NCBI GenBank assembly: GCA_021793235.1 | Contig: JAJYTD010000003.1 | Span: forward strand, 124,001-188,000 | Source of the DNA: Actinomycetes bacterium | GTDB taxonomy: Bacteria > Actinomycetota > Actinomycetes > Streptosporangiales > Streptosporangiaceae | Length of the DNA: 64,000 bases | Reading direction: 5' to 3' | Part shown: one piece after another, positions 11,520 to 14,594 of the stretch | How the letters are laid out: each line of letters opens with the position of its first letter | How positions within the stretch are numbered: position 1 is the stretch's first letter | The notes under the pieces: generated by a model | Seen by the model: the letters and a program-made list of their open reading frames with translations, nothing else | What the model was told of the DNA's origin: nothing | Database searches by the model: none | Translations under genes and position numbers: made by a program

Positions 11520-12281
11520 CTACACTTCGGTGAAGCCGGCGTCGCCGAGGACCTCGGCGCCCTCCTGAGAGACCAGCAGCTCCACCCACTCCGCGGCGAG
11601 GCCGGGCTCGGAAGCGCCCGCCACGACGGCGATCGGGTAGTCGTTGGGCGCGGCCGCCGCCTCGTCGAACGCGATACCCTCCACGTCCTCGCCCGCGGAC
11701 CGCACGTCGGTCCGGTACACCAGGGCGGCGTCGACCTCGTTGAGCCGTACTTTCGTCAGCGCCGCCCGGACGTCCTCCTCCTCCGTCACCGGGGTGACCG
11801 CCACGTCGGCGGCTGCCATGACGGCCTCCGCCGCGGCCCCGCAGGGCACCTCCCGGGCGCACAGCGCGACAGCGGTGTCGGCGTCGGCGAGGTCGGCCAG
11901 TCCGGTGACATCGGCGGGGTTGCCCGGTGGTACGGCGATCTCCAGCCGGTTGCGGGCGAACACGGAAGGCTCGTCGGCCAGGTGTCCCTCATCGGCGACC
12001 GCGTCCATGGTCCGTCGGTCCGCCGACGCGAAGACATCAGCGGGTGCGCCCTCGTTGATCTGGTGGGCGAGCGCGGAGCTCCCGGCGAAGTTGAACTCCA
12101 CCCGCGTGCCCGGGCGATCCCCTTCGAACCGCGCGCCGAGGGTCTGGAACGGCTCCGTCAGAGAGGCCGCGGCGAACACGGTCAGTACTTTGCCGCCCGC
12201 GGAGTCCTCCGATACGGCCGCGCACGCCGCCAACGGCAGCAGCAGCGCACCCGCGGCACACACAACGGCGCGACTACCCAT
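11520..12281 (-). CDS. modA: Molybdate-binding lipoprotein
   Basis: Extracytoplasmic receptor that captures molybdate for ModBC. 253 residues; signal peptide with lipobox LPLAAC (Cys20 lipidated). Mature motifs VFAAASLTEPFQTLGARFE, VEFNFAGSSALAHQINEGAPADVFASAD and the late DAALVYRTDVRSAG are those of ModA. Start ATG 12281 is preceded by GAAGGG at a good distance. Only about 12 bases separate it from the stop of the interrupted regulator frame, so regulator and transporter were probably one operon before the insertion described at 12310-12632. Confidence 0.93.
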   Translation of the reverse strand: MGSRAVVCAAGALLLPLAACAAVSEDSAGGKVLTVFAAASLTEPFQTLGARFEGDRPGTRVEFNFAGSSALAHQINEGAPADVFASADRRTMDAVADEGHLADEPSVFARNRLEIAVPPGNPADVTGLADLADADTAVALCAREVPCGAAAEAVMAAADVAVTPVTEEEDVRAALTKVRLNEVDAALVYRTDVRSAGEDVEGIAFDEAAAAPNDYPIAVVAGASEPGLAAEWVELLVSQEGAEVLGDAGFTEV

Positions 12282-12293
12282 GCCGGATGCCCT

Positions 12294-12983
12294 TCACCGT
12301 CTACCTCCGAGGATGCCCCGGACTTGAGCCCGGGGAGGAACCGGACTCCTGCACAGGAGGGCGGCAACGGCAGAGCGCTTCGCGCTCTGCCGTGGTATTG
12401 TCGCTCTCGGTGAGTGAACCTCACCGTCCCGGCCCCGTGCTACCTCCTTCGGGCCGGAATATGCGAAGAAACGGGTACCGGAGGACGTTCGGGATCCCGG
12501 GGCGCACGCCCCGAATGCCTGCGGAGGCGGTGTAAGACCGTCCGACGTCGCTCGGGCGGCTGTCGGCTGTGAAACAGGAACCCCTGCCCGCGAGGGTAGG
12601 AATCCCCGTGCTTCAGCACGGGGAGAAGTCAAGACAGCTGTGGCGACCGACCCCGGTTCCAGCCCCAGTTCCTCGGCGGCCTCGCGGCTCATCAGCGACA
12701 CCACGCGGTGCGGTCCGGCCTGGATCTCCACTTGGGCCATCACATCGCCCAACGTGACATCGGTGACCAGTCCGCGGAACCGGTCGCGGGCCGAGGACCG
12801 GTGGCGTTCGGGGTCCTCGCCGGTGCCGCCGCGCATGAACGCGGCCAATTCGGCGCCGTCCACCACCCGGTGCCCGTGGGGATCGCGGGCGGCGGGCAGC
12901 CGCCCCGAGTCCACCCAGCGCCGGACCGTGTCGCCGCTGACCCCGATGAGGGCGGCGACCTCGCTCATGCGAAAGATCGACAC
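12294..12983 (-). pseudogene. MopI-type HTH/molybdate-binding regulator, C terminus replaced by element
   Basis: Starts at GTG 12983 (VSIFRMSEVAALIGVS). Residues 1-60 are a MerR/excisionase-like winged helix (DTVRRWVDSGRLPAARDPHGHRVVDGAELAAFM), then a single Mop/TOBE domain (FRGLVTDVTLGDVMAQVEIQ ... VVSLMSREAAEELGLEPGSVATAV). Homologues then continue with a last beta strand of about ten residues (roughly VKATxVxVE). Here the frame enters the IS200/IS605-like remnant at about 12633 right after ATAV. The frame stays open through the remnant to 12294, adding some 113 unrelated residues. The original protein would be a molybdate-responsive regulator of modABC; whether the fused product still works is unknown. 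Confidence 0.75.
12310..12632 (+). mobile_element. TnpB-less IS200/IS605-like remnant with omega-RNA-like 3' end
   Basis: About 320 bases of structured, gene-free DNA. The right end has a perfect 8-bp hairpin CCCCGTGC-TTCA-GCACGGGG (12604-12623), preceded by GGGTAGGAAT and followed by GAGAAGTCAA: this is the familiar right end of actinobacterial IS200/IS605 elements. At the other end lies a 6-bp palindrome (12316-12335) and an 11-bp perfect hairpin (12367-12377 with 12383-12393). The centre (about 12430-12600) resembles the 3' region downstream of tnpB that encodes the omega/guide RNA. No transposase or TnpB frame is present, so it is a non-autonomous or decayed copy. Left boundary is uncertain by about 10 bases. 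Confidence 0.65.
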
Positions 12984-13202
12984 GTCGCCAACTCTATTCC
13001 TTGCACTTGCGAAGGGGAATGCCAGGTGTCCCAGCAAATGAGCTGGGAAGTGCGGGAATCTCCGGAAGAATGCCGATGGCCTCCGGCAGCACAGAGGAAG
13101 GGTGCTGGCACTACGCCCACGCGGCGTGCTGCCGTCATGGCGACAGCGGGCGCCCTACTTCTAAGTTGATGGGAAAGCAGTTGACAGAAGAGAGTGCACA
13201 TC

Positions 13203-14594
13203 ATGCGCAGCCTGGTGGACAAAGCCAGGACCGGAATGCTCGCGGCCAGGGCTGAGATCACCGCTCGGCGGTCCGCCGCTGAGCGCCTGGTCGCGCTGCT
13301 GCACCTGCTGACCTCCCTGGCGCTGTCCGCGGGCTATCTGCTTCCGGCCGCTCTGCTCACTCTCTTCGGGGTCTGGGTCTCCCTACTGCTCTGGGGCGGC
13401 GTGACCGGCCTTCTGCCCCAGACCGGCCTCAGGAGCGCCGGGGACATCGCCAACACGGTCGCCTTCGTTCTGCTCGCGCCGACCGCGGCGACCCTGCTCG
13501 CCCGGCTCTCCGGCCGGATCCAGCGCAGCCGCCTGGCGAGCGCCTTCGGCATCGTCGAGGCGCGCGACCCCGCCCCCGCCGTCCGCGAGCGCGACCCCGC
13601 CCCCGCCGTCCGCGAGCGCGGCCCCGCCCGTGCCCTGGCGTTCCTCTTCGGCCGCGAGGCGTGGACCGCCGTCGCCCACAGCACGATCACCGGGATCCTG
13701 GGAGCCGTCTCCGGCGGGATCGCGGTCGGCCTTGTCGTCTACGGGGCCGCCGTGGCGGCCGGTTCCCTCCTAGGCCTCGGATACGCCATCGTCGACGGCT
13801 CCCTCGACAGCGCCGCGCGGCCCCTCGCTCTGGTCCTCCTCGGCCCGGTGGGGGCACTGGTGGGCATGTGGCTGGTTCCTCCGCTGGTCCGCCTGGAGGT
13901 CGAGGTGACCCGGCGGCTGCTGTTCGACGCTCCGGAGGTGCGGATGCGGCGGCGGCTGGCCCACGTGCAGGACAGCCGGTCGCGCATGGTCGACGCGGCC
14001 GAGGCCGAGCGCCGCCGCATCGAACGCGACCTGCACGACGGCGCCCAGCAGCGGCTGCTCGCCGTCACCATGACCCTCACCCGGGCGCGGGCCAAGTTCG
14101 ACCGCGACCCGGCAGCGGCCCGAGCCCTGCTGGAGGAGGCGCAGTCGGAGTCCAAGGCCGCGATGGCGGAGTTGCGAGAGGTCGCGCGGGGCTTGCACCC
14201 CCGGGTCCTCACCGACCACGGCCTGGAAGCGGCCCTGCCCGTTGCGGCCGAGCGCTGCCCGCTCCCCGTCCGGGTGCACGCGGAACTGCCCGAGCGGCCA
14301 TCGGCGCGGGCTGAGGGTGTGGCCTACTACGTCGTGTGCGAGGCGCTCACCAACGTCACCAAGCACGCGGGCGCCGGCAAGGTCGAAGTCCGCGCCGAGA
14401 GGCTCCGCGACGGTGGCGAGGACCTGGTGCGGATCACCGTCACCGACGATGGCGCGGGCGGTGCCGACCCCGACGCGGGAACCGGTCTCTACGGCCTGTG
14501 GGACCGGGTCAACGCTGTTGATGGGACGCTGACCGTGCACAGCCCCTCGGGCGAGGGGACCGTCCTCACCGCCGACATTCCATGGAGGGCATGA
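13203..14594 (+). CDS. Two-component sensor histidine kinase, NarL/DesK type
   Basis: 463 residues. The N-terminal half has about six membrane helices arranged as in the actinobacterial sensor domain; the soluble half has HisKA_3 with the phosphoacceptor His278 in IERDLHDGAQQRLLAVT, and a HATPase_c domain (EALTNVTKHAGAGKVEV as N box, VTDDGAGGADPDAGTGLYGLWDR as G boxes). Between helices, a 27-base tandem duplication (13563-13616) doubles the peptide RDPAPAVRE. ATG 13203 has GAAGAGAG eight bases upstream; GTG 13194 is an alternative. Coupled to the response regulator by a stop/start overlap. The signal is unknown; the DUF4097 gene downstream may be a target. Confidence 0.92.
   Translation: MRSLVDKARTGMLAARAEITARRSAAERLVALLHLLTSLALSAGYLLPAALLTLFGVWVSLLLWGGVTGLLPQTGLRSAGDIANTVAFVLLAPTAATLLARLSGRIQRSRLASAFGIVEARDPAPAVRERDPAPAVRERGPARALAFLFGREAWTAVAHSTITGILGAVSGGIAVGLVVYGAAVAAGSLLGLGYAIVDGSLDSAARPLALVLLGPVGALVGMWLVPPLVRLEVEVTRRLLFDAPEVRMRRRLAHVQDSRSRMVDAAEAERRRIERDLHDGAQQRLLAVTMTLTRARAKFDRDPAAARALLEEAQSESKAAMAELREVARGLHPRVLTDHGLEAALPVAAERCPLPVRVHAELPERPSARAEGVAYYVVCEALTNVTKHAGAGKVEVRAERLRDGGEDLVRITVTDDGAGGADPDAGTGLYGLWDRVNAVDGTLTVHSPSGEGTVLTADIPWRA
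13563..13616 (+). repeat. Two-copy 27-bp tandem repeat inside the kinase gene
   Basis: Two identical 27-base units (13563-13589 and 13590-13616) followed by a diverged partial third copy. Being a multiple of three they keep the frame and duplicate RDPAPAVRE in a cytoplasmic loop of the histidine kinase. Copy number may vary between strains. Confidence 0.85.

Follow-up and report, generated by a model that had tools for sequence, protein, structure and literature searches.

Palindrome-associated transposable elements (PATEs) of Haloquadratum are derived from IS605-type transposons (PMC3119063). Elements of the IS1341 type, the tnpB-only members of the IS200/IS605 group, are about 1.25 to 1.4 kb long (PMC9956272), and in ISDra2 the reRNA or omega RNA comes from the right end of the element, its guide comes from the right flank, and the motif 5' of the target is the insertion motif (PMC8612924). 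Literature searches on TnpB together with MITEs returned nothing relevant. In the window, the whole stretch of 64,000 nucleotides that was analysed and that comes from a Nocardiopsis-like soil bacterium, a molybdate-regulator gene has a remnant of jumping DNA of 335 nt in its 3' end (12298-12632, + strand). We consider it very probable that this is a non-autonomous, PATE-type IS200/IS605 element that was inserted 3' of TTCAC and is now an orphan guide-RNA locus.

The first-pass annotation had started the element at 12310. The element is real, but homology and the target motif place its left end at 12298 and rule out 12310. TTCAC, the target or transposon-adjacent motif with the left cleavage site, occupies 12293-12297 (+) directly 5' of the element, which gives a left junction at 12297|12298; the right junction is 12632|12633, after GTCAA. 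TCAC or TCAT was found 11 to 14 nt ahead of a common GGA motif in 11 of 11 left ends (three full-length elements, six tnpB-less copies and two left fragments), the background being 1.8% for random window positions with three allowed spacings. Both element ends have subterminal hairpins (all on the + strand) homologous to those of coding IS200/IS605 elements: the left one, an imperfect hairpin at 12315-12336, is conserved in the TnpB-coding loci L050, L064 and L065, and the right one, TCCCCGTGCT-TC-AGCACGGGGA at 12603-12624, is a perfect 10-bp hairpin with arms at 12603-12612 and 12615-12624 that is conserved in alignment A1. The same arrangement, a hairpin and then G(A/T)AGTCAA, terminates 26 homologous right ends, the majority of which lie immediately 3' of a TnpB gene, and GTCAA, the right cleavage end (12628-12632, +), does not vary among the 23 TnpB-linked ends in A1. 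The earlier reading of IS200/IS605-type ends, with the hairpin given as 12604-12623 and followed by GTCAA, thus holds. The same is true of the claim that tnpA and tnpB are missing, since no fragment of either was found inside 12298-12632. A further hairpin, internal and perfect over 12 bp, lies at 12367-12393 (+); L002 and L003, left-end fragments without a right end, have a similar one.

The interrupted gene (12633-12983, - strand) encodes a helix-turn-helix protein with a TOBE (Mop) domain of the molybdate-regulator type (Pfam HTH_17 and TOBE; 70 to 82% identical to its relatives), and it lies upstream of modA (11520-12281, - strand; TIGR01256, 133 bits) and of permease- and ATPase-type genes. 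What remains of it ends at ATAV, and NCBIfam Mop aligns with only positions 2-62 of 70 at 37 bits, the cut-off being 55. Relatives have ATA(V/I)VKSTxV(V/I)VE and then a short tail, which in the near ones ends in RHG* or HA* at a CATG overlap. The insertion lies exactly after ATAV of the Mop domain, as had been proposed; every relative with a readable tail goes on with VKSTxVVVE at this point. The present frame (ORF 12294-13037, - strand) crosses the element, adds about 113 codons including the stop (12294-12632), and ends at a TGA (12294-12296) that is formed by the TTCAC motif. When the flanks are joined at 12297|12633, they read GTC GCC ACA GCT GTC GTG AAG GGC ATC CGG CAT GGG TAG, that is, VATAV|VKGIRHG*, without target duplication, and the stop of the joined frame overlaps the modA start (CATGGGTAG), as it does in relatives. 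Of three candidate junctions, 12297|12633 is the only one that gives back the conserved frame with its stop; 12303 and 12309, which lead to other tail frames, were rejected.

The remnant of the native tail, VKGIRHG* (12274-12297, - strand), which overlaps the modA start, still has V-K and GIRHG* at the insertion. It is about 12 in-frame codons shorter than the 17-residue tails of relatives; these codons are missing beside the left junction, and the rest of the last strand is among them. Thus, the regulator has indeed lost its last beta strand, as the first-pass annotation stated, but the cause is an insertion plus a deletion and not a simple cut of the frame, and removal of the element would not by itself bring the strand back. 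The deletion may have come before or after the insertion. Regulator relatives from same-family genomes and from named genomes such as Nocardiopsis, Streptomonospora and Marinactinospora were compared, a minority whose tails fell outside the search pattern being left aside. No insert was found in any relative with a readable tail, and the full last strand (VKSTNVVVE...) was present. Relatives with a longer regulator thus lack the element, and the same sequence beside an intact regulator, which would have spoken against an insertion, was not encountered among them. Many relatives encode VK as GTG AAG, so that their opposite strand reads TTCAC precisely at the position of the insertion. This empty-site comparison is one between relatives, the genus being represented by this genome only and not by a pair of strains with and without the insert. 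In the neighbouring histidine-kinase-like gene, a 27-bp tandem repeat is present in 2.5 copies at 13562-13629.

A DNA search with the whole element gave matches in 138 of 299 same-family genomes. At most of the best-matching loci this right end comes immediately after a TnpB gene, and the last 120 bases align readily. L050, L064 and L065 are full-length relatives of 1.38 kb with the same ends; L050 and L064, for which reading frames were listed, encode one TnpB of 368 amino acids each and no TnpA. Other copies lack tnpB, namely, L005 and L089 in this genome and L042, L043, L044, L054 and L079 elsewhere, and such copies occur in at least three genera. L005 (positions 1491-1847; G000:C104), the third tnpB-less copy, is about 345 nt long and follows TTCAC, and its central omega-RNA stem contains a longer insert. 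L089 (1348-1620; G000:C7), of about 273 nt, is preceded by TTCAT, which the spacing favours over TTCAC as its motif, and ends in GCCGA instead of GTCAA. L095 (C98) likewise ends in GCCGA, and the two possibly represent a second subfamily, one whose right cleavage site differs. Weak matches to the middle region (L075 to L078) yielded no further copies where they were read (L077 and L078).

Omega-RNA scaffolds were searched with a covariance model, R1, that was built only from 23 TnpB-linked right ends. Positions 12514-12632 (+) match R1 over its full length (1-119 of 119) at 105 bits, which identifies them, as judged from the sequence, as a complete omega-RNA (reRNA) scaffold. The TnpB-linked ends themselves score 111 to 126 bits and the other tnpB-less copies 70 to 123 bits. 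The element stands out beyond chance, being the best of the 11 places that R1 finds in this genome and having a fold z-score of -4.9. In Rfam, the scaffold matched sot0042, an archaeal family of IS200/IS605 omega RNAs, and HgcC, in both cases below threshold; a match to mir-3155 (20.7, gathering score 70) was dismissed as a chance hairpin. The scaffold is preceded by a 5' extension of two hairpins (12473-12497 and 12498-12513, +), which is shared by the element with L042, L043, L044 and L079 and which, within the actinobacterial family as sampled, was found only at loci without TnpB and in no TnpB-coding relative.

Could such scaffolds be maintained without a nuclease gene of their own? In an alignment of seven tnpB-less copies, 16 of 30 scaffold pairs had both-side changes that keep the pair, and 92% of the cells were paired, a value reached by 0 of 500 shuffles; pairing fell to about 46% when partners were slid by one column. 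This alignment was fitted to the model and is thereby biased towards the structure. A second alignment, of four copies with the extra 5' segment (66 to 79% identical), is independent of the model, and 8 of its 49 pairs had changed on both sides, versus 0 to 1 in slid controls, although its structure was derived from the same alignment and so tends to beat slid versions. Since the segment 12473-12513 was found in this family only at loci without TnpB, at least part of the compensatory changes probably came after the loss of tnpB. Such changes suggest that the RNA was more than debris, at least until recently. Both alignments would suit an element kept as a working source of omega RNA, one that relies in trans on the TnpB (and TnpA) of others and whose RNA structure is selected without a nuclease of its own, a reading we regard as unlikely. 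A broader form, in which the tnpB-less lineage of at least three genera consists of guide-RNA-only parasites with a co-varying scaffold, an extra 5' hairpin domain, and TnpB and TnpA borrowed for retention and movement, seems improbable to us as well. Against such borrowing, the compensatory changes could predate the loss of tnpB or have arisen when copies with and without tnpB recombined, a scan for one promoter type showed no promoter-like site for the RNA of the element, and the assemblies of two of the genomes concerned, this one and the related G147, are without cognate TnpB and TnpA.

Indeed, no Y1 TnpA (Y1_Tnp) match was obtained in the draft assembly of this genome, and PF07282 found two TnpB loci. 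One of them, L009, is an intact TnpB of the IS607 type (630 bits) that is only 31% identical to the cognate IS200-type protein of L064; it lies at positions 1330-2757 (G000:C17) in a region resembling a conjugative element. The other, L008, is a C-terminal remnant of the cognate, IS200-type TnpB together with its right end, and no intact IS200-type TnpB was found in the assembled genome. Among seven relatives searched, six carry 3 to 23 TnpB and 1 to 7 Y1 TnpA matches. The seventh, G147, which harbors L042 and L079, has five omega-RNA model matches and neither protein. The end of contig C87 (L091) and the start of contig C117 (L092) of this genome break at the same right-end base of a second omega-RNA type (CTGTGGAGCCGGTGTCAGACGGCAAGG...), which suggests that a repeated full-length TnpB element may be hidden in assembly gaps; the absence of TnpA and TnpB from the draft assembly is therefore provisional. 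The earlier proposal that the RNA is usable by a TnpB encoded elsewhere thus finds no support in this genome as assembled, in view of the missing Y1 TnpA, the sole intact TnpB being of the IS607 family, and the missing promoter-like site.

If a full IS1341-type element had been inserted at the regulator and had later lost tnpB by internal deletion, the ends shared with TnpB-coding relatives and the many right-end remnants in the genome would be accounted for. However, L042, from another genus, comes close to the element in length and interior, and the tnpB-free segment beside the scaffold recurs in L043, L044 and L079, at unrelated sites. The tnpB-less copies in general (the element, L005 and L089 here; L042, L054 and L079 elsewhere) are at unrelated sites, and similar short copies at unrelated sites imply that the short form moved, or existed before the insertion at the regulator. 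A one-off decay is disfavoured on these grounds, and we consider it quite unlikely. That the host has adopted the element as an antisense or attenuator RNA regulating the mod operon would fit its strong folding and its location, flanked by the regulator and modA and in antisense orientation relative to the operon, but the element sits at the regulator in one genome only, relatives regulate without it, its copies elsewhere are at unrelated loci and no promoter-like site is present, all of which makes this very improbable.

The insertion of a non-autonomous element that has become an orphan guide-RNA locus accounts best for the data. An element without tnpA and tnpB, from a group related to the tnpB-only IS1341 type, would have entered the 3' end of the mop-type regulator gene, just upstream of modA, as single-stranded DNA on the 3' side of TTCAC, placed there by a Y1 TnpA acting in trans. 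Its copies point to past mobility of the element type; the present copy is probably immobile, since Y1 TnpA is absent from the present assembly. The complete scaffold ends at 12632, and the predicted guide, GACAGCTGTGGCGACCGACC (12633-12652, +), antisense to the regulator, starts at 12633 and would be copied rightward from the regulator gene, as the first-pass annotation had it. The geometry of guide and target is established; by analogy with ISDra2 (PMC8612924), rightward transcription would yield an omega RNA with the guide GACAGCTGTGGCGACC..., and this RNA, once loaded into a compatible TnpB of the IS200 type, would confine cutting to the empty TTCAC-GACAGCTGTGG site and thereby keep the element in place, for the target TTCAC-GACAGCTGTGGCGACC exists only where the element is missing. 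No second target for the predicted guide was found in the genome, the best other site having 2 mismatches in 17, and near-match counts resembled those of a reversed-pattern control. Since no compatible TnpB was found, what the element amounts to at present is most likely an orphan guide-RNA locus, and its lasting effect is most likely the altered C terminus of the regulator.

Should such orphan scaffolds be transcribed, any TnpB brought in by a plasmid or a different element would be supplied with several guides at once, each for an empty insertion site, and non-autonomous elements would be retained in trans; with 11 scaffold matches and no assembled intact IS200-type TnpB, this genome makes such retention testable. 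Otherwise, the case is one of ordinary insertion, with the regulator's last strand altered.

Like the PATEs (PMC3119063), the element is too short for a transposase, has near-terminal IS605-like palindromes, caused no target duplication and occurs in several copies. It differs from them in its actinobacterial host and in keeping a complete, scorable omega-RNA scaffold; the passages on PATEs that were consulted do not mention omega RNA. With the IS1341-type elements L050, L064 and L065 it has the ends, the target motif and the omega-RNA scaffold in common, but it lacks tnpB and measures only 335 nt. The predicted RNA has the same right-end, right-flank-guide and motif geometry as that of ISDra2, with the motif TTCAC instead of TTGAT and without an adjacent tnpB. 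Haloarchaeal sotRNA (Rfam RF02656; PMC12558985) matched the right end below threshold (E = 0.008; 20 bits versus a gathering score of 88) and comes from another domain of life. The element thus belongs to a known kind, of which it is a well-preserved example, and does not represent a new system; less ordinary are how many scaffolds lack a cognate nuclease and the compensatory changes within them.
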